Virus record (IMG/VR): IMGVR_UViG_3300009506_000035
Location: 1 to 58,440 of that record
Length of the DNA stretch: 58,440 nucleotides
Origin: a virus
Direction: 5' to 3' (one strand)
Shown: one piece after another, positions 38,249-55,053 of the stretch
Layout: the number at the start of each line of letters is the position of its first letter
Numbering within the stretch: the stretch's first letter is position 1
Notes under the pieces: model-generated
What the model saw: the letters and a program-made list of their open reading frames with translations, nothing else
What the model was told of the DNA's origin: nothing
The model's database searches: none
Program-made: the position numbers and the translations under genes

Positions 38249-38554
38249 TCATTCCGGCGGTGGTTGATGTTGCGCTAGTGCTATGGCAGCCGCCATATCA
38301 TCCAATGCGGTGCCGTCGGCATCCAATGTGACGGAGTGCAGGTTGTAGTCGGACCCATCCGGCCGACCTTGCGGGTGGAATGGTGCGTCACCCTTACGGA
38401 GTTGGTTGTCGACCCACGCTGTGTGGACATCCACGATGTGTCTCTGGGCTGCCACGACCTGCGGGTCAACTTCATCCCACTCAAATGCTGAGGGATCTAC
38501 AGCCGGTAGACCCCTTTCCAGTTTGACCGCATCATCAACATTTTTCCGATCCAT
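38249..38554 (-). CDS. Small hypothetical protein
   Basis: The ATG at 38554 has AGAGGA 4 bp upstream and overlaps the end of the portal gene by 58 bp. The 101-aa product contains LPAVDPSAFEWDEVDPQVVA, then QRHIVDVHTAWVDNQLRKGD and a C-terminal acidic/His/Pro region. It lies between two large head genes. I do not recognise it. Confidence 0.6.
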   Translation of the reverse strand: MDRKNVDDAVKLERGLPAVDPSAFEWDEVDPQVVAAQRHIVDVHTAWVDNQLRKGDAPFHPQGRPDGSDYNLHSVTLDADGTALDDMAAAIALAQHQPPPE

Positions 38555-41500
38555 GTGTCCTCTTTCCCTGCCCCATCCCACCTGCCAGCTTGGCTGAATT
38601 CGTAAGCGGTGGGGTAGCCGGGCTGTCCGTACTCAAACGTGTCTGCGCGTTGCAGCAATTCCTGCAGTGCGGCGGTTTGCTGCTTACGGTCCACTCCGGG
38701 TGCGTTGAGTGGACCTCCAGAGTACCCTTCTTCCAGGAGATTAAGGGATCCACGAAACTTCGAGATCATCCTTTCTGCCTCGGCTTTAGTGGCGAAGTCA
38801 TAGCCCGCACTAGCCCAAGCATACCCACCGACGTCAATATCGGCTTGCAGCGTGATCGCGTACACGCCCGACTGCCGGTACCAGCTGATGAGATGGCTGT
38901 TGAAGTTGTTAGAGAACCCGCTGCCCTGCACCTGCGGGTGAAGCGCTAGGTAAGAATGGAACGCAGTCAATTTGCCGTCCACGTTCCGGTAGTACCTAGC
39001 AAACGCGCCCACCGCAGCACCATCCGCAGTGTGGATGGTGCCCTCCACGGCCATGTCCGTACGTATGCCGTCGCCGCGTGCCACTTCGGTGATGGTGGTA
39101 GTCAATCCGCCGAATTCGCCTTCAAAGATCGGTCGGGCCAGCCGGCGTAAATCGGAGTCGGTTTTAGCCTTGAACAGTTCACCAACTGGCGGCAACGTGT
39201 CATTTTTGCTGCGGCGCTCTCTCGCAATCGCGCCGACACTGTCATACAGCGCCTTACGCATCTCCTGTTCGGTGGCGCCCCGACGTACCGTCACGCCGGG
39301 TCGGGCACGGATTGCATCCTGCAGTTGCCGCCGACTGAAGGATGCTAGTGGGTCATCTTCTTCTGTTCCGTTCGCCCAGTCGTTGAGCAGCATCGATATG
39401 CGCAGGCTAGCCGATGGCTTGCGTGCTGCAGGTCGATGGCTAGCCGGGGCGGCGGCCCCACGTGCGCGTAGTCGCCGCAGAAGAGCATCGCGTGACAGCT
39501 GCCTATGATCCGAGATCATGTATTCTGCCGCAAGATCGTGAAGCTGGTGATCTTTGAGTCGGTCTAGATCATCAGTCGGCGATACACCACCGCGCGACGC
39601 GTGACTCACCAAGACACGCGCAATCTCCTTGTCCGGTGTACCACGCGCGACGCGTACATTGTGCCGTCGCGCGGCGGCAAGGAGGTGACGCCGCTCGACA
39701 CCGTGCAGCGGGTCAGGCGTGCCTTTACCTGCGGCGGCAAGCTCCAGCGCGCGGTCGATTGCCGACCGGATCGATCGGAACTGGCCACCGTGCGCGTCAC
39801 CGGCTGGCAGGCGTGGATGCAGTGCCGGGTTCCATGCACGTTTTTCGATGGGTGATGTTTGGTGCCACTCACCGGGCGCAGTGTCGATCGCGTCCAGCAT
39901 CGCATCGAGACTGGCGATCAGTTCCGGGCGTACCGCCGGATTACCGTCAAGGTGCGCGGGTACCCACCACGCCAACGATTCGACCTGGTCGCCGTCTGGG
40001 TCGTCGGGGTTGGTTACGTCGTCCCGCTCGCCCGTGATGTCGACGTTGTCTTCAGCTGGGACGGAGTAGACATAGCCGCGGTATTTGCCATTAGCAGATC
40101 TCCACTTTCCGGTGTATTTCCCGGCGGGCAGTTCAATGCCAGTTTCTTCCTGCCACTCGCGAACTGCGGCGTCCTTGGGTTTCTCGTCGTCTTCGAGACG
40201 TCCACCTGGAAATTCCCAGTAGCCTGAGGCCGGATCGTTGTCGTCAACTGCACGTTGCAGCATGAGGATCCGGCCAGTGTCGGCGGCACGGACCGCGATC
40301 CCGGCAGCAACCGCCGTCTTGGCTGATTTGTTTGCTGGGTCGCTTCCCCGGTGGACCTGAAACAGGTGCGTCTTGTCCCATGGTCCGCCATTTGAGTCCA
40401 CAAACCCGATGTAGGCAGGAACAGGTCGCCCCAGCTTGCGGTATGCCAGGGTACGGTGGTGCCCATCAATGATTTTGACGGTACTCTCGCCCGGTTCCTG
40501 CACAGCGACCACGGGATTTGGAGGGTCATCCGCCTGGATGCGGTCGGCGAAATGCTGCACGTGCGCCTTGTCGCGTGTTGCGGCCCACGATTGGATTGCG
40601 GCATCGTTGATGTCGTCCTGCGCGACCGCTGTGGGCCCGACCCAGTGCACGCGACGCATCCACTCGATGGCCTTCGGGGGGTAGTTGACTCGCATTTGCG
40701 CCATGACGTGCTCGGCGTCGACTGGACTTGGATCGTCCAGGCCAGACGCGCCTTTAGTGGCTGTAGCGTTCCCTCCTGCGAGCCAGCGCCGCAACGCCCC
40801 AGCTCCACGCGTGATCGCGGCGAGGACGTCCTGCAGCAGTCCCATCAGATAGCCGCGTTGCCGTTCAGCCTTCTGTGTGGCCAGCTGGTGCAACGCGGCG
40901 TCAATGCGTGCGGGGCTGCCTGTCTGGACTGCGGCAACAACCGCCTGCGTGGCTGGATCTACCGGTTTTGTAACCACCACAGTCGAAATAGGCACATGTA
41001 GATACGAGAGAGTGCAGCGGCAACGAGGACCCCCACGGCAGATCGTGGCGTGTTCGCCAAACCCTCCGTCGCCAGGGTATCCAGGTAGCTCGCCGACGGT
41101 GAACACAATTCCGTCGCGCTGGTCGCACAATTCACACGCGCCCGGTTTGGCGTTCCAACGGATGGCGATGCTGTCCGGGTTGTCGGCTTGGCCGATCGTT
41201 GCCAGCCCGTAGCCTTGCTCGTAGGCCAACGAGACTTGGCCGGCATACAGCCCAAAACGTCCCCCCAGGTTATCGACAAACGACGGGCCGGTGCTCGTGC
41301 CCGCTTTCAGCGCCTTGGCTGGTCCGTCTGTTAGCGCGTGGCGTACTCCGATGGCCAGCCCGTCTCGAATGGCGTCACGCATCAACGTGACACCGCCGTC
41401 CACAAAGTCCGCTGTTGACACTGCACCCGCGGCAAGGCGCAGTGTGAGATCGCGCAATTCGGTCTTGACCTGCTGTTCCAGGTGTGCGATTGCTTTGGCG

Positions 41501-44421
41501 CGGCGTTGCCGTTGTGTCCCTGCTGGCGAGTCGGACTTGGTGAGGTGCGTTGTTGCTGCCTTGTCGAGCCCTGCCGCGGAGGAAAGAGCAGACAGGAAGG
41601 GACCCCACTGGGTGTAGTTGGGGCCGCCAAGCACGATCGGGTCTTTGCCGGCAACACGGAACGTGGTTTCTTCGTCCTCGCCGACAACCGTCACCGTCGC
41701 GTCGCCGAGGCTGGTCGAAACCGTACGCGACTCAACCACTCCTGATGTGCGCAGGTCGCGCCCTTCTTCTTCAGTCAGGTCAGACCACGCATCATAGAGG
41801 CCTCGTGCATCTTTGACGCTCAGGCGCCACTCATCGCTGCCGTTGGGGTGGATAACGACAAGGCGGCCGTCACGGTAAACGTCAACGGGTCCACTCTGGA
41901 CGTTGACCCGCTCTGCGATGAGATCCTGTGCCGTTTCCGCCAAAACACCAAGCTGATGGGCCGTCATGGTTGCGATGGGCGCGGAATCGATAAACTCTTC
42001 GTACGTCTCGTGTTTGTCGTCGTCCCACTGGTGTAACGACAGTGACGTCCTACCTGAGTTGTCGGAAGACTCTCCGATGACCTTAATGCCCAGTAGCGGG
42101 TCACGCGCTACGCTGACAACCCGCCCAGTAGCGTCTCGGTTTTCAACGCTGCGGAAAACGGTGTGACTCTCACCAGTTGGTAGTACATCTGCCTGGTAAG
42201 AGGTGCGGCGTAACTGCTCCAGCTCTCTCCGATCCATTCGGATCGGGCGTCCATGTGGGAAGGTCAGCGTGCGGGATTCGTCGTCGTGGGCGGTGATGGT
42301 GATGTCGTGGCCACCGAATCTGACCAACCTATGGAAGATTGCAGATGGGTCGTGTGTCCACCGACCGTGATCGTCGCGTGGCTGTGTCGGATCGAATCGC
42401 TTCACTGCGGCGCGTGCGTGGTCTATCTCGACCAGCGTCGGATTTGTGATCAGACCAGCGAAGACGTCGGCGGGTACATGCTCGGGTGTCCAGTTCTGGA
42501 TGCTGCGGCCTTTGGCGATGCGTCGGCGCATCAAGTCCAGTTCCCGCAGAGCGGCGTGTATGGCGACTGGTTGCTGTACGGCTTTGGTCTGATGCTGGAC
42601 GGTGCTGTTTGTGCGTGTCGCGTGGCTGGCGGATAACGCTGTCTGTGCGCCTGAGTGTGCTGGTGTGCTTGTCGCGTTGGGTGGTGGTGGGGTGGGAGGC
42701 TTTGGTTGTGGCGGTTCTCCGGAAGGTGGTGGGCTTGGTGTGGTCCCTGGAGGTGTTCCTGGCTGTTCTGGCGGTGGGGGACGGTGCCCGGTCTCGGAGT
42801 CGATCGAGCCGATTGGGACAACACCGCCGGCGGTGAAGTAGACCGGAACTGAGGTGATCGGTAGTCCCCAAGACTGTTCGCCACGAGCATTGCGCGCTTC
42901 GTCAATCGACATAAGCCCATGACCCACTTGGGTGACGAGCATGTCGACATTGGCGCGTTCGTCCTCGTCCTGTTCGAGGCCTTCCCACATCCACCGAGCG
43001 TCTCGCTGGCCGCAGATTTCCTGAATCACGAAATCGAAAATGGACGATTTTAGCCAGGTCAGGAGCGGTTTCAGCGCTTTACGTTCGTTGATCGTTTCCG
43101 CCTGTTTGGCCATCTGATTCGCCGCCCCAGCAGAATGCCCAGACGTCGACGCGCGCGGAGTGATGCCCAGCTCCTGCGGCTGGATATCAAACGCCATGCA
43201 TACCTGGTTCATCAGCAGCTCGTCAAGCTGGTCCGCTAGCGGCACAGGACGTATCGGGTCAATCCGCGAATCCTTCGGCAACACGATGATCTTATGTTTC
43301 CACGCTGGATCGCCCGCCATCGCGTTAAGCGCATCTTGCAATTGCCGCAGCTGTGTCGGCGTAGCGTTTGGGTCACCCGCCGAGATGAAAATCCCTGGAA
43401 CGGACCCCTCGCTGAAGTAGTTAAGCTGATATTGCTGACGTTGAATGCCGCTCAGAATGGGCACCAACGCACGCTCGATCGGCGGGAACCCGTACGGCGT
43501 CCACGACCTAGTGACATAGGGCAAGTACATCATCTGATCGCCGCGATACCGGGCCACCAGATTGTCGCCCATATCCTCGATGTCGTCGCCCGACAGTGCG
43601 GTCATCAAATCGACGCGAGGCACACCAAAGTTGTAGACCTGAAACGCTGGGTTTGGTGGCGTGGGAATGCTGCCCTGCATGTCCAGCAACGGGCGGACCG
43701 TGTCACCTGCAACTAGGCACAGCGCGGCCAGATTCGAGCCAAGCACACCCTTGCCTTTGACCCGCGGCGGCTGCATATACAGCGCGAGCGCGTCCACCAC
43801 GAGAATGTCCTCGAGCAACGCCGCCAACCATGCGCCGAAATTGTGGTACTTGCCGGGGTCGGGCCGGTTAAAAAACCGCTGCAGCTTGACACGACGCTCG
43901 TCGAAATCCCTACGTGCCGCCTTGTCGCCTTGCATGGCCTTTTCGGCGTCTTTCGTTGGGACGATCTCCCAATCCAGGCCGACGATCTCCTGGATACGGG
44001 TCTGCACACATGCACGGGCAACACTGTACGAATCAGCGATTGTCCGCAGTTGAGAAAAGCTGGCGAGCTTCAGACCCTCGTCGCCGGGCACACCGTGCGG
44101 CAGGTTCCATGACACGGGGTAGGTGTAGCGGCGCGGCTGCGGTCCCTCCCCTTCGGACTCGGGTGCGTCAATCGGAATCGGCAGCATCGGCGACAGCGGG
44201 CCGAACGATCCAGACAGGAACGTTTGCCAGTCACGCGGCAGTGCATACCGGCCAGTCTGCGCCAACCGGCCACCCGCCCACTCGTTGTAGGACGCGACCA
44301 GCGGAGACGGACCCCCGCCTACGGCGGGCATGAGTGCGCCTCCGAATCCGCCTGGACCAGCCTGTCCTGCTGGTGTGTTAGCGCGAAGGACTGCCTTTGC
44401 GAGTGCCCGTCTGCTAGTCAT
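38497..44421 (-). CDS. Giant portal-MuF polyprotein with ParB-like, NUDIX and acetyltransferase-like domains
   Basis: The ATG at 44421 is preferred over a TTG at 44466; the frame then encodes 1974 aa without a break. Domains in order (approximate residues): portal 85-525; Pro-rich linker 545-590; linker motif FDPTQPRDDHGRW 676; MuF head-morphogenesis domain 960-1145 with CELCDQRDG; ParB/sulfiredoxin-like IDGHHRTLAY 1318; NUDIX hydrolase 1365-1505 with GGRLEDDE...REWQEETGI; second linker motif WNPALHPRLPAGDAHGGQF 1530; SAP-like helical repeats 1575-1735; and a GNAT-like domain 1780-1890 (QGSGFSNNFN, DVGGYAWASAGYDF). Portal-MuF fusions are known; this chain of enzymes is unusual. Cleavage during maturation would release internal proteins. 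Confidence 0.85.
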   Translation of the reverse strand: MTSRRALAKAVLRANTPAGQAGPGGFGGALMPAVGGGPSPLVASYNEWAGGRLAQTGRYALPRDWQTFLSGSFGPLSPMLPIPIDAPESEGEGPQPRRYTYPVSWNLPHGVPGDEGLKLASFSQLRTIADSYSVARACVQTRIQEIVGLDWEIVPTKDAEKAMQGDKAARRDFDERRVKLQRFFNRPDPGKYHNFGAWLAALLEDILVVDALALYMQPPRVKGKGVLGSNLAALCLVAGDTVRPLLDMQGSIPTPPNPAFQVYNFGVPRVDLMTALSGDDIEDMGDNLVARYRGDQMMYLPYVTRSWTPYGFPPIERALVPILSGIQRQQYQLNYFSEGSVPGIFISAGDPNATPTQLRQLQDALNAMAGDPAWKHKIIVLPKDSRIDPIRPVPLADQLDELLMNQVCMAFDIQPQELGITPRASTSGHSAGAANQMAKQAETINERKALKPLLTWLKSSIFDFVIQEICGQRDARWMWEGLEQDEDERANVDMLVTQVGHGLMSIDEARNARGEQSWGLPITSVPVYFTAGGVVPIGSIDSETGHRPPPPEQPGTPPGTTPSPPPSGEPPQPKPPTPPPPNATSTPAHSGAQTALSASHATRTNSTVQHQTKAVQQPVAIHAALRELDLMRRRIAKGRSIQNWTPEHVPADVFAGLITNPTLVEIDHARAAVKRFDPTQPRDDHGRWTHDPSAIFHRLVRFGGHDITITAHDDESRTLTFPHGRPIRMDRRELEQLRRTSYQADVLPTGESHTVFRSVENRDATGRVVSVARDPLLGIKVIGESSDNSGRTSLSLHQWDDDKHETYEEFIDSAPIATMTAHQLGVLAETAQDLIAERVNVQSGPVDVYRDGRLVVIHPNGSDEWRLSVKDARGLYDAWSDLTEEEGRDLRTSGVVESRTVSTSLGDATVTVVGEDEETTFRVAGKDPIVLGGPNYTQWGPFLSALSSAAGLDKAATTHLTKSDSPAGTQRQRRAKAIAHLEQQVKTELRDLTLRLAAGAVSTADFVDGGVTLMRDAIRDGLAIGVRHALTDGPAKALKAGTSTGPSFVDNLGGRFGLYAGQVSLAYEQGYGLATIGQADNPDSIAIRWNAKPGACELCDQRDGIVFTVGELPGYPGDGGFGEHATICRGGPRCRCTLSYLHVPISTVVVTKPVDPATQAVVAAVQTGSPARIDAALHQLATQKAERQRGYLMGLLQDVLAAITRGAGALRRWLAGGNATATKGASGLDDPSPVDAEHVMAQMRVNYPPKAIEWMRRVHWVGPTAVAQDDINDAAIQSWAATRDKAHVQHFADRIQADDPPNPVVAVQEPGESTVKIIDGHHRTLAYRKLGRPVPAYIGFVDSNGGPWDKTHLFQVHRGSDPANKSAKTAVAAGIAVRAADTGRILMLQRAVDDNDPASGYWEFPGGRLEDDEKPKDAAVREWQEETGIELPAGKYTGKWRSANGKYRGYVYSVPAEDNVDITGERDDVTNPDDPDGDQVESLAWWVPAHLDGNPAVRPELIASLDAMLDAIDTAPGEWHQTSPIEKRAWNPALHPRLPAGDAHGGQFRSIRSAIDRALELAAAGKGTPDPLHGVERRHLLAAARRHNVRVARGTPDKEIARVLVSHASRGGVSPTDDLDRLKDHQLHDLAAEYMISDHRQLSRDALLRRLRARGAAAPASHRPAARKPSASLRISMLLNDWANGTEEDDPLASFSRRQLQDAIRARPGVTVRRGATEQEMRKALYDSVGAIARERRSKNDTLPPVGELFKAKTDSDLRRLARPIFEGEFGGLTTTITEVARGDGIRTDMAVEGTIHTADGAAVGAFARYYRNVDGKLTAFHSYLALHPQVQGSGFSNNFNSHLISWYRQSGVYAITLQADIDVGGYAWASAGYDFATKAEAERMISKFRGSLNLLEEGYSGGPLNAPGVDRKQQTAALQELLQRADTFEYGQPGYPTAYEFSQAGRWDGAGKEDTWIGKMLMMRSNWKGVYRL

Positions 44422-44668
44422 GCGTCCGGTTGCCTGCCTCCTCCTGCTCAGTGTCTTCAGCGTCAAGGGCTTCGGGCCAGATCACGTGGCTTTCCGACCA
44501 CCTACCATCGGGCCAGAATTCGACCTCGGCGAGTTCGCCGTTTGGGTGCCACGCCATGCGGCGTACACGAGGACATGCTCGTGCATGACGTCCACCGCAG
44601 TGCGCGCATGCGGGGACGTCTGCGAGTTTGGCGAGCACGTCGGCGGGAATCTCATCGATGTCCATCAC
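44414..44668 (-). CDS. Small zinc-motif protein between terminase and portal
   Basis: The 84-aa product overlaps the terminase stop (GTGATG, with GTG or the following ATG as start) and the portal start by 8 bp. It has one C-x2-C and a following Cys (PACAHCGGRHARACPRVRRM) and MAWHPNGELAEVEFWPDGRW. It is acidic at both ends. Small proteins of this pattern often sit between terL and portal genes in actinophages. The function is not known. Confidence 0.65.
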   Translation of the reverse strand: MMDIDEIPADVLAKLADVPACAHCGGRHARACPRVRRMAWHPNGELAEVEFWPDGRWSESHVIWPEALDAEDTEQEEAGNRTHD

Positions 44669-46245
44669 GCGACCTCGCTGTGTCCGCCATTATGTGGCTT
44701 GCGGCAGTGCGGGCAGTGAGTCGGATGCAATGCGGCCAGAAGCGGTGCCGAGCAGTGCTCACATGTCACAACGCCGTAGGTCTCAGTCCACCCGCCGGAC
44801 TGCGGCCACAGTGCCATGACCACTGCGTCCCCGTCGTCGGTGGACCGGCCGATCCGTTTATGGATTTCGTCTTTCGATTCGACCTGTATCTTCCCACCGC
44901 TCAGTACGCGCCAGTGCGGTGCGGTCAGATCGCCAGTGAGCAGATCGTTGGGGGGGAGTGCGATGTTTTCGCCGTTGGTCGGGTCGAGCAGTTCCCGCAC
45001 ATGCCACCATGCCGCGCTGCGGCAGTTCGAGAATCCCATTTCACCTGATCGGTCGCGCCGCGATGTGCGCGCCGACGCGTTGAATCCATCGACTTCGATG
45101 TTTTGCTCGCGTAGCCGGTCAACCACTCCTGCGCCGATGCCGATCACGTCTACCACTGCCTGCGCCTGGGGCATACTGTCCACAATGCTCTTTACTCGGC
45201 CCGTTGTTTGCATCGTGTCGGCTTTTGACGTGTGTCGCAGGTCCGTGACAACCGATCCGGTGCGGATCGCCAGGACCGTCTTGTCGGCGCCTGTGCGGGC
45301 CACGTCCACGCCAACAATGCGTAGCCCATCAACTGCCGGCCGTCCGGCTTCGTCCCACGCCCTCCACCGCTCATTTGCCTCCTCCACCCAGGCGAGCGGG
45401 ATGACACCGTCTTCGTCGCTTGAGTGAAACTCGCCTTCGACGCGGTTGTGGTAGACAGCGGAGTCTCCCCACTGTTCACGGCGTTTTTCGCACCATTCAC
45501 GACTGATACGTCCGGCACAGATGGCCTCACCTTTGGTGACGTGCCGAGGCCACCAGTCATCGAGCCCGGGCGCTCTACGGTGGATGTCGTAGAAGCGTCC
45601 GTTTGGCTCGCCGGGGGTGGACATTGCCAGCGCGTATGCCTCATTTTCGTCACCAGTCCCGGCACCGGAAAACGCGCCTTCAGCGGCGTCGAACGTCTCG
45701 GCTGAGATGGCTTTCGATTCATCGAACACATACATGACAGAGTCGGCATGTGCGCCTTCGATCAGTTCGGGGTTATCGGAGGCGACCGCGAACGCAGATC
45801 CATGGCGGAGCTTGATGTTGAGGGTGAGGAGTTCGGTGCGGGTGTCGAGTGGTTCGCGTCCGAGCATGGTCCAGCGGATCAGCCGCGCCCACTTGTGGAT
45901 CTCCGGCCAGAGGTAGCGCTCCAGCTGTCGCCACGCGCCAGCGGTTGTGACGCACTTCCAGTCCCGCATCGCCGCTTCGCGCGTCAGCGCGAACCACAGG
46001 ATGGCTATGGCCGAGGTCGTGGATTTCCCGAGCCCGTGCGGACCGCGGACGGAGACCCGGCGGCGTGTGGGGATCGCGGCGAGAATCTCACGCTGGTATG
46101 GGGCGAGCATCCTGCCGGCAGGCCATGCGATGCATTGGTCGGCGAACAGTACGGGGTCGTTGTAGTACCGCACGCCTTGACGTGCGGTATCGGCCGGCGG
46201 GTCGAGCCGGTCAGCCAGAGATGAGGCGAAGGTGTCGGGCAACAC
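44665..46245 (-). CDS. terL: Terminase large subunit
   Basis: The 526-aa ATPase-nuclease packages phage DNA. Motifs: Walker A RGPHGLGKST (67-76), adenine-motif region LAPYQREILAAI, Walker B VMYVFDESKA, coupling segment YALAMSTPGEPNG, and RNase H-like nuclease residues in VGVDVARTGADKTV, AVVDVIGIGAG and TDDGDAVVMALW. A four-Cys ribbon (CEHC, CPHC) is added at the C-terminus. The GTG start at 46245 overlaps the small subunit gene by 35 bp. Confidence 0.95.
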   Translation of the reverse strand: MLPDTFASSLADRLDPPADTARQGVRYYNDPVLFADQCIAWPAGRMLAPYQREILAAIPTRRRVSVRGPHGLGKSTTSAIAILWFALTREAAMRDWKCVTTAGAWRQLERYLWPEIHKWARLIRWTMLGREPLDTRTELLTLNIKLRHGSAFAVASDNPELIEGAHADSVMYVFDESKAISAETFDAAEGAFSGAGTGDENEAYALAMSTPGEPNGRFYDIHRRAPGLDDWWPRHVTKGEAICAGRISREWCEKRREQWGDSAVYHNRVEGEFHSSDEDGVIPLAWVEEANERWRAWDEAGRPAVDGLRIVGVDVARTGADKTVLAIRTGSVVTDLRHTSKADTMQTTGRVKSIVDSMPQAQAVVDVIGIGAGVVDRLREQNIEVDGFNASARTSRRDRSGEMGFSNCRSAAWWHVRELLDPTNGENIALPPNDLLTGDLTAPHWRVLSGGKIQVESKDEIHKRIGRSTDDGDAVVMALWPQSGGWTETYGVVTCEHCSAPLLAALHPTHCPHCRKPHNGGHSEVA

Positions 46246-46801
46246 CGATGCGCGCCTCCTGTTGTTGGACGGCGTCCATGCCCTGCTCTGCCATCCAAGC
46301 GGACAGTGCCCTGGTCATCAGGTCGAGTTGCGACTCGGACACGCGCACAAGCCGCTCGTCAATGTTAAGCTTCGCGATGGCGATCAAAATCTGTGCACAC
46401 CGGTCGAGCGCGCGCTCAAATAGGACGATTTCGCCTCGGATGGCTTCGCCGCCATCTGTGCCGTATCGCATCGTGGTGAGTTGGGAAACGGCTTCGTGAC
46501 ACACCTGTTTCCATGCCCGTGTTTCGCCGGCGAGCGCCTGCAGTTCGGCGAGGGGGTTCTCGATTGGGACGACCTTCAGCGCACCGAGTGTTTTCCGCAT
46601 TTTGTCCTCGGCTACCCGATTGGCCACCGCAGCCAACGAGCGCGGCGCCCGGCCGCCGTGGGATGCGCAGACTTGCTGGCCGGTCATCGGCATACTGTGA
46701 CACTGTCCGCCTGATTGTGCCTTAGCGTGTGCTTTGCACCGCTTCGGGTCATGTATCGCATTGCATTTCGGACAAATCTCAGTCTCTGCGGATCCGGCCA
46801 C
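46211..46801 (-). CDS. Terminase small subunit-like protein
   Basis: The 196-aa product has a Cys/His-rich N-terminus (CPKCNAIHDPKRCKAHAKA, GGQCHSMPMTGQQVCASHGG), a pattern frequent just upstream of actinophage terL. Helices follow (TLGALKVVPIENPLAELQAL) that could form the oligomerisation region. It would recognise the packaging start site and deliver DNA to TerL. It is the first gene of the late operon. The mobile-element relic begins within 87 bp upstream, so the original promoter may be lost. Confidence 0.78.
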   Translation of the reverse strand: MAGSAETEICPKCNAIHDPKRCKAHAKAQSGGQCHSMPMTGQQVCASHGGRAPRSLAAVANRVAEDKMRKTLGALKVVPIENPLAELQALAGETRAWKQVCHEAVSQLTTMRYGTDGGEAIRGEIVLFERALDRCAQILIAIAKLNIDERLVRVSESQLDLMTRALSAWMAEQGMDAVQQQEARIGVARHLRLISG

Positions 46802-46888
46802 GACGCACCCCTCTCTGTCAACCTGGTGTGAGGCACCCGCCCCCTGACAATTACTGAACTTGAGGGCGGGAGTAGGAGACTCCCAGGT
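46802..46888 (+). mobile_element. Left end region of the IS3-type relic
   Basis: This 87-bp stretch carries an imperfect dyad (CCGCCCCCTGACAATT ... TTGAGGGCGGGAG) just before the transposase ATG, which resembles an insertion-sequence end. It also holds whatever remains of the terS promoter. I see no clear target duplication because the right end is lost. Confidence 0.45.
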
Positions 46889-47401
46889 ATGACGAGCAAG
46901 GCGACCCCGTCCGGTCTAGCGCCGAGGTCCGGTGGCTCCTCTGGCGCCTCGTCCTCGACGCGGGCTGCGGCCGGGTCCGGTGTGGACGGGACTGCTCCTG
47001 GTCGACCGGAGCGGCCGGACCCGGAGGTGCCCGAGCGGGCGCGTCGGCGTACGTTCACCGCGAAGTACAAGCTGGACATCCTCGCTGCTTATGACGCTGC
47101 GGCGGAGGGTGAGAAGGGTGCGCTGCTGCGTCGTGAGGGCTTGTACTCCAGCCATATCACCGAGTGGCGTCGCGCCCGTGACGCCGGCGGCTTGGCCGCG
47201 TTTCGGAACACTCGGGATATGCAGGCCATCGCTGGGCAGGTCGGAGCCACTGCGTTCGACGTTGGCCCAGCTGGCGTGGGCTTCCCTGCCTCCTTCACCG
47301 CCGACCGCTACCCCGAAGATGGCGGTGGCGAATCGGAGCCGCCGTGGCATCCGCCCCAAATTCGGGTTCACCGCGTTGGACAACGGGTTCGCCGCTTGTG
47401 A
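46889..47401 (+). pseudogene. Truncated IS3-type transposase orfA
   Basis: The first about 105 residues (RRRTFTAKYKLDILAAYDAA, LLRREGLYSSHITEWRRARD, GGLAAF) match the HTH-bearing OrfA of IS3-family elements. After about 47204 the reading frame runs into unrelated sequence, and no OrfB with a DDE domain follows, so the element cannot transpose by itself. GC is high, like the host. It marks an insertion between the late operon and the accessory region. Confidence 0.78.
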
Positions 47402-48419
47402 GGACCCGCGCCGATTGCAGGGCATCTGTGACCGGCTGTCGGCGGCGAAGATCGACGCTCTGCTGCGCAAATGGCTGCGCCGCCTGCCGCACCCGTTCAC
47501 CCGCGCCGACCGGGCTGCCGGCTACCGCTACGACGTGTCGATCCTGCAGGCGGAGTTCTCGTTGACGCAGGTGCTCGACCGGCCGGTCACCGGGCGGATC
47601 TTTTTCGAACAGGTCATCTGCGACAACCTCGACCTCGCCACGCCCGGACTGGGTCGGGCTGATCTTCGATAGGCGCATCATCACCCGGGGAAAGAACAAA
47701 ACGCCCGGTCGGTTCCGTACCCGGGTAATCACCGCGGGGGTGACCCCGAGTCTGCACATCGACGACAAGACCAGCAAGATCAAGCAGTATCACAAGTTCG
47801 ACCAAGCCCTACATACTTAGACAACCATCAATGACAGTCGCGACTTCGGTATCGGAAAGCGACTGGTGAACCTGCCCGCACTGCGGCAGGTCGACTTCAC
47901 CGCCAACCGACGGCTGCTGGCCGTCCAACGTCTCAGCCACGACCCCACCATCGGCGCCGACGCGATCGACGCCCTGACCAGCCCCACCATCACCGACACC
48001 GGCAACCGCATACCGGCCCTACCGTTCAACTCACACCGCACCCAAGCACTGCTCGCCGCCCTGGTCATCTTCAGACTGCTGCCCAACGGGTTTCGCAACC
48101 GCGACCTACGCGCCCACCTCACCCCCCCTGCTCGGGCATCCCCGCCGAGACCATGACCCCAGGACAGCTCAGCTACGATCTACGCCGCCTGCGCCACCAC
48201 GGACTCGTGCAACGCATCGAAGGAACCCGCCGCTACGCCGTCACCGACTACGGTCTTCACCTCGCCCTGTTCCTCACCCGCTCCCATACCCGACTGCTGC
48301 GCCCAGGACTGAGCGACATCCTCGACACCGCAGCCATGCCTACACCGATCCGCCGCCACCTCACCCGCCTGACCACCGCAGTCGACGACTACGCAAAAGG
48401 TCTGGGACTTGCCGCATGA
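47319..48419 (+). pseudogene. Multiply broken actinobacterial gene of unknown function
   Basis: Pieces in different frames line up as one former protein: FTALDNGFAACEDPRRLQGI, GYRYDVSILQAEFSLTQVLD, (frameshift near 47650) PGRFRTRVITAGVTPSLHID, an in-frame TAG at 47818, SRDFGIGKRLVNLPALRQVD, ANRRLLAVQRLSHDPTIGAD, (frameshifts near 48130) TPGQLSYDLRRLRHHGLVQR and GLHLALFLTRSHTRLLRPGL. I recognise the order from large actinobacterial proteins often found near transposases, with a DNA-binding winged-helix-like C-terminus. The function is unknown and the gene is dead here. Confidence 0.75.
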
Positions 48420-48484
48420 AAACCTGACTCAGCAAGACAAGTTGGAGAACCCAAGACCTCTAGCCAAGGTATCGTGCTGATCCA

Positions 48485-50503
48485 TTAGTTACGGCCTTGG
48501 CAGAGGGGTTCGGCTGCGATATCGAGGTCATCTTCGGGGGTGTTGTCGGGCTCGGCTATCTCTGCGAGCAGGCTTGGTTGGTTTGCCTTCATCTCCGCCA
48601 GACCCTTGATGTGAGACTGGCACTGGGCATGCAGCGGGCACAAGTCACACGCAGGTGCTGTTTCACGGCAGATTGCGACCCCGATCAGTCGGAGCGCTGC
48701 GCTGCGGAGAGGGGCGTCCTTGCCATGGCCAACCAAGCGGGCGATGTCGACGCGGCCATCGGTCAGGCGGTTGGTGCGGTGTGACTTGGTTCCGGCAACT
48801 CGGGCTGCAACCCGTACAACGCACTGGTTGGACAGCAGCACATCCCGATCGCAGAGAAGTTGCAGCAATCGCTGTTGTGCGGGTTCAAGCTTCAGCGCGT
48901 CAGCGAGATCGTCCGCATGGGCCCAGACTCGTCGAACAGTGACGAGCGGTGCGAGTTTGTCCAAGGCACGGCGACCTGCGCCTGTTTCTAGGTACGGCGC
49001 GATGGAGTCGAGGTCCCGTTGGGTCAGTCGTTCCTTGCCCTGGACTTCGGCCACGATGTTGTGAAGATTCTGTATAGGCGTTGCATGGCTGAGCAACAAG
49101 GCAACCAGCGCAGCCACAGGATTGGTCATTCGTGGTCCGGGCAGTACATACCAGCGCGATGTTCGTCGTTGCCTCTTGGCCCATTTGGCTAGCGCGTCAT
49201 GGGCATTGCTCCATCGGGTAGACGAAGCCACGCCAGTACCTGGGACGCCAGGTGTCAGCGCGGTCGCGGCGGCTCTTCCTAGCAGTGGCGGAACGGCGTT
49301 GCCGATCTGGCGGAAGGCATCGCTTCGGGTGCCCGCAAAACGGAAGCGGTCAGGGAACGTCTGTATGCGGGCGGCTTCACGCACGGTAAGGGTCCGTGGC
49401 TGTTCAGGGTGGATGTACCAGTAGCCGTCCTTTGCGATATGGGCAGTAATCGATCGACTCAGGCCGTTCCAGTCCAGCTTCTTGTATTTATCGTCGAACG
49501 TGTTGGCTGTGTATCGGCGCAGGTGACGAGGCACGTCGGTGTAGAGCATCTGCGGATGCATCAGCGTGAAGATTTCTCGGTCATCGTCGCGAACCGGGCG
49601 GGTCATATGGTCCCAGACGACCTGCTCACTCATTCCCTTCCGCATGCTCTGCATGAACGGTGACAAAGTGCGCGGCATGTGATACGGAAGCTCGCGGCCG
49701 CCGATGTCGTTGTGCTCGACGTCCAAGGACGGGAGGTCCTTGATGGCATCGGCCAGCGTGGTCGGCTCAGGATGTGGATCGGGCCAGGTGAACGCGTCCG
49801 CATCGCGGCGCCCCAGCAGGATCAGGCGCTTGCGGTGCTGGGGGACTTCGTATTGCCAGGCGTCTACAAGGTTGATCTGAGTGTGGTAGCCACGCCGCTC
49901 CAGTTGGTCAACCATCTCGCGGGCAGCCTGGAAGTCATCGCCGAGGGCCATGTCTGGCACGTTTTCCATCAGGATGGCCCGAGGATTTAGCTTGACCGCG
50001 ATGTCGAGGAATGAACGCCACAGCTCGCGCCGATGGTCATGTTCGGCCCGATGCCCGCTCTCCACGAGGCTACGTATTTTGCTGCGTCCGGCGCGGCTGA
50101 ACGGCTGGCAGGGAGGGCCACCGGCGACTAGGTCAATCTCGGCGGTGGACAGCAGCTTGATGAGTCGGCCCCGTTGGCGCACGTCACTCAGGTCGCAGGA
50201 GAGCGCCAGGCCTGGAAAGTTATGGCGGTGGGTCTCAAGCGATTTGGGATCGTTGTCGACTGACGCTGCCACCGTCCAGCCGGCCTCCTCCAGCCCCAGT
50301 GAGAGTCCGCCGGCGCCGGAGAATAGGTCCACCGCAAGCCGCTGGCCGACGGCCTTGCGCGCTGCGCACCATTCCGCGAAGGTGACCTCGGTGCAGTAAT
50401 CCGGGTGGTCGTCGAGGCGCAGGTCGTCGCTTCGTTGCAGGTTCACGCCGTACTGGACCACGTTGCTTGCCTTTCCGGAGCTGCCCGAGACCTCTTGGAT
50501 CAA
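48485..50503 (-). CDS. Cytosine-5 DNA methyltransferase fused to endonuclease III-like [4Fe-4S] domain
   Basis: The 672-aa product has a complete C5-methyltransferase at residues about 50-415: motif I AVDLFSGAGGLSLGL, IV GGPPCQPFS with catalytic Cys132, VI ENVP, VIII QHRKRLILLG, IX RTLTVREAARIQTFP and X QIGNAVPPLLG. Residues about 455-632 resemble a HhH-GPD glycosylase, with NPVAALVALLLSHAT and the exact iron-sulphur spacing C612-x6-C619-x2-C622-x5-C628. By eye, the endonuclease III catalytic Lys and Asp are replaced (Gln/Arg region near 543 and Asn559). The domain may be a DNA reader or a monofunctional repair partner. No restriction gene is adjacent. It lies beside mobile-element relics. 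Confidence 0.9.
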   Translation of the reverse strand: MIQEVSGSSGKASNVVQYGVNLQRSDDLRLDDHPDYCTEVTFAEWCAARKAVGQRLAVDLFSGAGGLSLGLEEAGWTVAASVDNDPKSLETHRHNFPGLALSCDLSDVRQRGRLIKLLSTAEIDLVAGGPPCQPFSRAGRSKIRSLVESGHRAEHDHRRELWRSFLDIAVKLNPRAILMENVPDMALGDDFQAAREMVDQLERRGYHTQINLVDAWQYEVPQHRKRLILLGRRDADAFTWPDPHPEPTTLADAIKDLPSLDVEHNDIGGRELPYHMPRTLSPFMQSMRKGMSEQVVWDHMTRPVRDDDREIFTLMHPQMLYTDVPRHLRRYTANTFDDKYKKLDWNGLSRSITAHIAKDGYWYIHPEQPRTLTVREAARIQTFPDRFRFAGTRSDAFRQIGNAVPPLLGRAAATALTPGVPGTGVASSTRWSNAHDALAKWAKRQRRTSRWYVLPGPRMTNPVAALVALLLSHATPIQNLHNIVAEVQGKERLTQRDLDSIAPYLETGAGRRALDKLAPLVTVRRVWAHADDLADALKLEPAQQRLLQLLCDRDVLLSNQCVVRVAARVAGTKSHRTNRLTDGRVDIARLVGHGKDAPLRSAALRLIGVAICRETAPACDLCPLHAQCQSHIKGLAEMKANQPSLLAEIAEPDNTPEDDLDIAAEPLCQGRN

Positions 50504-50586
50504 CGAACCGACCGAACAGCCAGAGGAGGATGCTCAGTAAATTCCGCGATCCGGTGCCTCAAACAGGTTGACACGTTCCGCACCCC

Positions 50587-50991
50587 TCAAACGATCTGGA
50601 TGGCGCCCACCTGCATCACTGGCACCTCAGGACTGTCCGTGATCTTAACCCATACAGCGTAGGTGCCGCGATCAAGCGTGACGGTGCCGCCAGGCCCGAC
50701 GAGACACTGCGCAAGGTATCTGCCGGTGCCTACGTCAGTGGTCCATGATCCGGTCTGCCAATCACCGCCCACTGGGTCGGTGCCGACGACAGGAAAGGCG
50801 AACTGTACGACGTCGCTGGTGGGATCGTAGATGACCCCGGCCGCCTTGGCTGTAACGTCGACTTGCACATAAGCCAGCGAGAGCGAGGATTGGATCAATG
50901 CCCCTCCGGGTGCTGTCATACCATCGCTGTTGACTGTCTCCCCAAAAACCCATTTCGGGTTAAGCGTACCTACCGTAAACTCGACGATCAC
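50587..50991 (-). CDS. Hypothetical phage protein, beta-rich
   Basis: The 134-aa product contains LAYVQVDVTAKAAGVIYDPT, VQFAFPVVGTDPVGGDWQTG and TVTLDRGTYAVWVKITDSPE, an all-beta pattern like an Ig or C2-like fold often seen in virion-associated proteins. It is the last of three coupled minus-strand genes (50.6-51.6 kb) that look like displaced structural genes. They may once have belonged to the head cluster upstream of terS. Confidence 0.68.
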   Translation of the reverse strand: MIVEFTVGTLNPKWVFGETVNSDGMTAPGGALIQSSLSLAYVQVDVTAKAAGVIYDPTSDVVQFAFPVVGTDPVGGDWQTGSWTTDVGTGRYLAQCLVGPGGTVTLDRGTYAVWVKITDSPEVPVMQVGAIQIV

Positions 50992-51353: not shown

Positions 51354-51645
51354 TGCCCAACCCTTCCGTCTTGTCCGTCCTGTAGGGATCTTGTACTCGG
51401 AGAGTCGCTGTGCGCTGGTCGTCGACCAGCGCGCAAATGAGCACTCCGGCATCGGCAAGGTCGATCGACTCGTAAACCACATGCCCGCCGACCACTATGC
51501 GGTTTTGCGGCGTCACCGCATAGTGCGGGTTGGCGGCCACAGTCCAGAGGCTGATGCGTGTTGCCGGGGGTGCCTCGATGACTCTGCCTGCAGAGTCGAT
51601 GTAGATGTCGCCGAATGCGACACCGGCAGAGTTGAGTGTTGGCAT
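51325..51645 (-). CDS. Hypothetical phage protein
   Basis: The 106-aa product is beta-rich: GVAFGDIYIDSAGRVIEAPP, TRISLWTVAANPHYAVTPQN, RIVVGGHVVYESIDLADAGV. It is the first gene of the three-gene minus-strand group. No family is recognised. The group looks virion-related because of composition. Confidence 0.6.
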   Translation of the reverse strand: MPTLNSAGVAFGDIYIDSAGRVIEAPPATRISLWTVAANPHYAVTPQNRIVVGGHVVYESIDLADAGVLICALVDDQRTATLRVQDPYRTDKTEGLGNDCTLHTAR

Positions 51646-54553: not shown

Positions 54554-54808
54554 ATGGCCAACCACCACGTGCTTCCCGTCGACGGCGCCATCACCTGGAC
54601 ATCCCCCGATGGTCGCACCCACATCGAAGTTCGCCGCATCCGCGAGTCCGTGTGGCGCGTCAACGTGCTACACGGCACGGTTGCCCGAATCCTCGACGAG
54701 GAGCTTAGCGGCTCATGGGACAGCGAGCAGGTCGCGCGTAGCGCCGCACGACTCTACGCGACCCTGGCCCGCGACGAATGCCGCGCCGCCAGGGGCGTGG
54801 ACGCGTGA
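54554..54808 (+). CDS. Small hypothetical protein
   Basis: The start follows operator copy B by 6 bp with no ribosome site. The 84-aa product has VDGAITWTSPDGRTHIEVRR, WRVNVLHGTVARILDEELSG and a C-terminal helix. It may be a small beta-sheet protein. It overlaps the methyltransferase relic as GTGA, so the two are co-translated. Confidence 0.62.
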   Translation: MANHHVLPVDGAITWTSPDGRTHIEVRRIRESVWRVNVLHGTVARILDEELSGSWDSEQVARSAARLYATLARDECRAARGVDA

Positions 54809-55053
54809 ACGTCCTATCGTTGTTTGCTGGCATCGGCGGGCTTGACCTCGGCCTGCAGCGGGCCGGGATGACCGTGAGGCTGGACGGATCTGGAGGACCG
54901 TGGGTAGCCGAGTGGCCAGACACGCCGCGGACATCCGCCAATACTCCGGACCGCGCAGATCGGTTGCGCGGACTCGGGAACGCTGTCGTGCCGCAGGTTG
55001 CCGAACACATCGGAAAGCTGATCATGAAAATGAAAGGGGACGGTCATGCTTGA
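54805..55053 (+). CDS. Miniature cytosine-5 methyltransferase relic (motifs I and X only)
   Basis: The 82-aa frame starts with GTG at 54805 and contains motif I (VLSLFAGIGGLDLGLQRAGM) and, after only about 35 residues, motif X-like RLRGLGNAVVPQVAEHIGKL. Motifs IV (PCQ), VI (ENV) and VIII, which hold the catalytic residues, are missing. This is an in-frame deletion of roughly 200 or more residues from a normal enzyme. It cannot methylate. It is still in a translated operon, so it might be a SAM-binding fold fragment or simply decaying. Confidence 0.75.
   Translation: MNVLSLFAGIGGLDLGLQRAGMTVRLDGSGGPWVAEWPDTPRTSANTPDRADRLRGLGNAVVPQVAEHIGKLIMKMKGDGHA

Follow-up and report, generated by a model that had tools for sequence, protein, structure and literature searches.

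A phage-borne cytosine-5 methyltransferase fused to a putatively non-catalytic HhH-GPD domain: a probable orphan of mza-like defense islands

What could a phage do with a cytosine-5 (C5) methyltransferase that carries a domain resembling a DNA repair glycosylase? The window, by which we mean the whole stretch of DNA that was analyzed, is a virus record of 58,440 bases, whose genes include those for terminase, portal, tape measure and DNA metabolism and in which one open reading frame (ORF) joins these two domains (Table 1). The nearest relatives of the window terminase among named phages were the terminases of Streptomyces phage TurkishDelight and Actinoplanes phage phiAsp2 and, judged from its sequence, the window is an actinophage. 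Its portal domain shares a single frame with a NUDIX domain in a 1,989-aa ORF (38497-44466, minus strand), unusually long for a portal gene.

Table 1. Coordinates of the features discussed in the text (positions of the window)
Feature	Position	Strand	Evidence
Phage terminase large subunit	44665..46245	-	phrog_2; relatives in TurkishDelight and phiAsp2
Inserted segment, 3.8 kb, mobile-element remnants and methyltransferase	46802..50586		Between gene 50587..50991 and gene 46211..46801; sister-phage comparison
C5-methyltransferase/HhH-GPD fusion ORF	48485..50503	-	Open over 672 codons
C5-methyltransferase domain, residues 55-416	49256..50341	-	Pfam PF00145 (6e-60), TIGR00675, invariant motif columns, AlphaFold2/Foldseek
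Predicted catalytically altered iron-sulfur HhH-GPD (MutY/Mig/EndoIII) domain, residues 430-640	48584..49216	-	Profiles, AlphaFold2, Foldseek
Arg545, at EndoIII Lys120 position; variable across family	48869..48871	-	hhalign, family alignment
Asn559, at catalytic Asp position (EndoIII D138, Mig D144)	48827..48829	-	Gap-free alignment through conserved Arg564; column never D
Family-specific conserved element NRLTDGRVxLARLVGxG, residues 576-592	48728..48778	-	Family alignment
Iron-sulfur signature C612-x6-C619-x2-C622-x5-C628	48620..48670	-	Kept in 63/72 rows

The start of the fusion is more likely the GTG at 50461 (residue 15 of the frame as first read), giving a protein of 658 aa, because a GGAAAGG sequence lies ~8 nt upstream and the alignment with most relatives begins at about residues 10-18; the first 14 codons are probably untranslated. 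In the methyltransferase half, motifs I, IV (PPC), VI (ENV), VIII (QxRxR) and X (GNxxxP) follow each other in order, and F-SG-GG, GPPCQP (C132), ENV (180-182), QxRxR (Q222, R224, R226) and GNAVPP are all unbroken and invariant in an alignment of 72 rows. A second PF00145 match of the window, in two stretches (2.8e-7), falls in a 91-aa ORF (54778-55053, plus strand) that opens with C5-methyltransferase motif I and closes with a stretch resembling motif X, apparently an internally deleted remnant of another methyltransferase.

The C-terminal domain is all-helical. It went undetected when the window protein was searched with PF00730, so that Pfam alone would miss the HhH-GPD half, while the NCBIfam mutY model matched residues 560-634 (2.8e-5). 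The family profile aligned with a profile of endonuclease III (EndoIII) and MutY with an hhalign probability of 98.2, and an hmmsearch of the PDB with a 37-member profile gave Mig.MthI (1kea) as the best match (2.8e-7), followed by MutY and then EndoIII. The AlphaFold2 model of the domain had a mean pLDDT of 94.5; its top Foldseek matches were MutY, Mig and EndoIII, and all 50 matches listed were HhH-GPD glycosylases. The TM-scores with 1kea (0.60/0.63) were moderate, suggestive of a diverged member of the fold. Four concordant lines of evidence, from profiles and from the predicted structure, thus establish the domain as an iron-sulfur HhH-GPD fold, with the 4Fe-4S cysteine motif present in the window protein. 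This upholds an earlier, sequence-only reading of the locus, which had described complete methyltransferase motifs, the exact C-x6-C-x2-C-x5-C signature and an EndoIII-like fold. A BFVD fold search with the domain returned nothing credible. TAL-effector matches to the domain were discarded as sums of weak repeat matches, with only one listed TAL-type entry having any stretch that passes the threshold alone.

The catalytic residues of this fold have not been retained. Between the catalytic Asp of Mig and the conserved Arg, Mig and the window protein align gap-free (VDANFVRV and SNQCVVRV, respectively), which sets Asn559 opposite the Asp; hhalign with EndoIII gave the same placement and set Arg545 opposite Lys120, a position at which Lys is not conserved across the family. 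These alignments bear out Asn559 as assigned by hand in the sequence-only reading and, of its Gln/Arg for the Lys, the Arg. Neither an Asp at the catalytic position nor a lack of similarity to the HhH-GPD fold, either of which would have contradicted that reading, was observed. The Asp column was occupied by S, G, T, N, Q or R in the 72 aligned sequences (window included) and by A, S, R, K or T in seven further relatives, with the catalytic Asp found in none of the 79. The hairpin of the LPGVGxxTA type is also missing: LKLEPAQQRLL stands in place of LPGVGRKTA, and the element is absent family-wide. The iron-sulfur cysteines are missing in nine of the 72 sequences, in a Microbacterium/Leucobacter/Rothia-type group. 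The most conserved element of the domain is instead the family-specific NRLTDGRVxLARLVGxG, which is partly kept in the members without cysteines. Loss of glycosylase catalysis is strongly supported by these comparisons.

The earlier reading had also suggested that the fusion could couple methylation to repair. Such a bifunctional enzyme would remove or flip a base (the T of T:G, 5-methylcytosine or another modification) in a non-canonical way, by which methylation would be linked to repair or to suicide cleavage. It would be in line with the T:G glycosylase Mig being the closest solved relative and with the retention of the fold and of the iron-sulfur loop in most members. The D138N and D144N mutants of MutY are, however, catalytically dead. 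Their structures are among the Foldseek matches (PDB 1mun and 4ypr) and bear the same Asp-to-Asn change, which argues against this proposal, as do the Asp missing from all 79 sequences, the unconserved Lys, the lost hairpin and the clade devoid of a cluster. Moreover, Vsr, the usual T:G endonuclease, is encoded separately in 50 of 80 chromosomal loci (the best 80 of 147). Active repair by the fusion is therefore judged unlikely, and the bifunctional enzyme as a whole highly improbable.

The 147 relatives came from a scan in which each species was represented by a single genome; it used peptide patterns of the window protein and is hence biased to the relatives of that protein; the best 80 loci were kept, nearly all of them actinobacterial. 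An even draw from the phylum of one relative (396 genomes) gave six genomes with a match, that relative's own among them; in a draw of 199 genomes from the phylum of a Vicinamibacterales MAG, the genome at the center of the draw was the only one with a full-length match. A plasmid search with the C-terminal domain had no match, nor did viral scans with the single window protein or with the C-terminal alignment. Two viral scans led by the methyltransferase half yielded one record as their sole full-length match (L082/L203), and the fetched stretch of this record has partner genes of the chromosomal type; the window phage was the only phage with an orphan fusion found in the viral scans. Across the family, purifying selection acts on the C-terminal domain (median dN/dS of 0.17 versus 0.096 for the methyltransferase). 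In Nocardia africana, another orphan copy of the fusion has a fragment of a phage-type integrase (PF00589) close by (L005:4646-5023), a further hint of mobility.

Gene clusters beside the chromosomal relatives encode a Z1 helicase, a MORC-type GHKL ATPase, AIPR, a DUF4420 nuclease, Vsr, and paraMORC with an RR-like protein, and PADLOC labels four of the neighbor families MzaB-E. At least one partner gene was present within ~5 kb in 78 of the 80 loci (best 80 of 147), the other two having little flank and contig ends nearby. By its gene neighborhood, the fusion is a regular component of actinobacterial Z1/MORC/AIPR/DUF4420/Vsr islands that match a predicted mza-like defense system, and the chromosomal systems would depend on its methylation. 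Five islands hold two fusion copies each (L009, L018, L047, L049 and L058); in all of these except L018, one copy is of the window type and the other is diverged, with an EndoIII-like N-terminal half. Such pairs might serve an asymmetric site, with each copy methylating one strand. The group without cysteines (L050-L067) is found in paraMORC loci, often with the RR-like protein and Vsr.

One alternative is that the C-terminal domain docks defense partners (Vsr, or the MORC or paraMORC ATPase) and makes no contact with DNA, in which case the phage orphan could also bind or redirect the host complex as a decoy. The helix-hairpin-helix is the main DNA-binding element of the HhH-GPD fold, and its loss throughout the family fits such a role. 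So do the family specificity of the most conserved element, part of which outlasts the cysteines, and the confinement of cysteine-less members to loci that have paraMORC but lack Z1, AIPR and DUF4420. The cysteine-less members nevertheless form approximately one clade, so that the correlation with partners amounts to a single event, and the phage retains the domain without any partner genes. We regard docking without DNA contact as possible, though somewhat unlikely. With lower probability still, and clearly unlikely in our estimate, the fused pseudo-glycosylase might read the site of its own methyltransferase (5-methylcytosine, hemimethylated or deaminated T:G) by flipping or probing bases there without excision; it would report whether the site is methylated, unmethylated or mutated to MORC, Z1 or Vsr, or to the methyltransferase, and the phage copy would present a "self" signal.

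The partner families were also sought in the linear, possibly fragmentary record of 58,440 bases: none was found, and one Z1 match was at chance level. Within this record, the fusion is a solitary phage methyltransferase without a cognate nuclease, as in anti-restriction. In the sister phages L288 and L291, ~330 bp separate the homolog of gene 50587..50991 from the small terminase-adjacent gene, and no methyltransferase is present; this gap holds one ORF of ~100 aa, with a weak relative in the window at 51412-51615. The window has the 3.8 kb insert (Table 1) in place of the gap. Positions 47362-48278, within the insert, are ~71% identical to a sequence that some Rhodococcus plasmids carry in several copies, unannotated or hypothetical there, and probably represent an uncharacterized mobile element. 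A placement of the fusion gene in a host flank was rejected, as phage-type genes lie on both sides and the genes adjacent to the insert are common to the sister phages.

The trees of the methyltransferase and C-terminal domains were congruent, with the phage copy nested in a partner-associated chromosomal clade as sister to L051. TRD identity to the closest relatives was 63-69%, against 70-74% for the core, and with values this close the phage copy and its relatives may well have a common target site. Compared with host pairs of equal methyltransferase identity, the phage C-terminus shows no excess divergence, an indication at the sequence level that the phage copy of the domain is not undergoing decay.

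The insert could also be a mere passenger, host DNA brought into the phage by the mobile element and of no benefit to it, as the gene adjoins degraded mobile-element sequence and is missing from the sister phages. This is quite improbable given the 672-codon frame with all catalytic motifs intact, a C-terminus that is undecayed relative to the host pairs, and a codon-position GC of the coding-gene type.

Taken together, the data are best accommodated by a phage-borne orphan modification enzyme that derives from mza-like islands, protects phage DNA and carries a non-catalytic binding module, a reading that we favor and consider fairly probable. Orphan capture is supported by the partners in almost all chromosomal loci, by their absence from the window and by the position of the phage copy within the partner-associated clade; that it was the phage that acquired the gene is supported by the lack of the insert in both sister phages. 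A host actinobacterial Z1/MORC/AIPR/DUF4420/Vsr island, mza-like and of the restriction-modification type, would have been the source of the methyltransferase, which the phage would keep alone, without the partner genes. The enzyme would then methylate phage DNA at the site checked by the host system, and the methylated DNA would escape that system. The C-terminal pseudo-glycosylase would not cut glycosidic bonds. Its role would be that of a binding module that docks partner proteins or keeps DNA close to the methyltransferase; the lost hairpin and the conserved family-specific element favor partner docking, and the retained fold and iron-sulfur loop favor DNA contact. The sequence-only reading had also considered a role in defense: this agrees with the family's occurrence in defense islands, but since the window copy stands alone in a phage, counter-defense fits it better. 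If correct, a repair fold that is constrained and stripped of its catalysis family-wide, inside the methyltransferase of a little-understood defense system, would show how MORC/Z1 systems recognize or assemble on DNA, and the phage orphan would offer a natural counter-defense whose methylation site points to what the defense system checks.

A predicted mza-like defense system composed of Z1, DUF4420 and a cytosine methyltransferase, with AIPR and MORC in addition, is described in the relevant section of PMC9523054, and MORC/paraMORC restriction-modification systems in the main text of PMC2292703 and PMC8011034. None of these texts mentions a glycosylase or HhH domain on the methyltransferase, and our literature search, with subscription papers mostly outside its coverage, found no described C5 methyltransferase/HhH-GPD fusion. 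The chromosomal relatives are accompanied by the same gene set as these systems (Z1, MORC, paraMORC, AIPR, DUF4420, Vsr and RR-like), whereas the window copy lacks all partners and thereby departs from the adjacency seen in the 78 chromosomal loci. The methyltransferase half is similar to DISARM DrmMII, its best PADLOC match (2.4e-85), and to other type II C5 methyltransferases; however, no DISARM gene was found among the scanned neighbor proteins, and the fusion has the extra C-terminal domain. With MutY and EndoIII, the window domain has in common similarity over the full domain and the iron-sulfur cysteine spacing, but it lacks their catalytic Asp, Lys and hairpin and is ~15% identical to them. 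Mig.MthI, the closest solved relative by sequence profile, has a similar fold and an iron-sulfur cluster, and on an archaeal plasmid its gene adjoins that of a GGCC methyltransferase; it is as apt a precedent as the sequence-only reading had suggested. Mig.MthI is nevertheless a separate and active enzyme with the catalytic Asp, whereas the window domain lacks the HhH hairpin, carries Asn559 and is fused to its methyltransferase.
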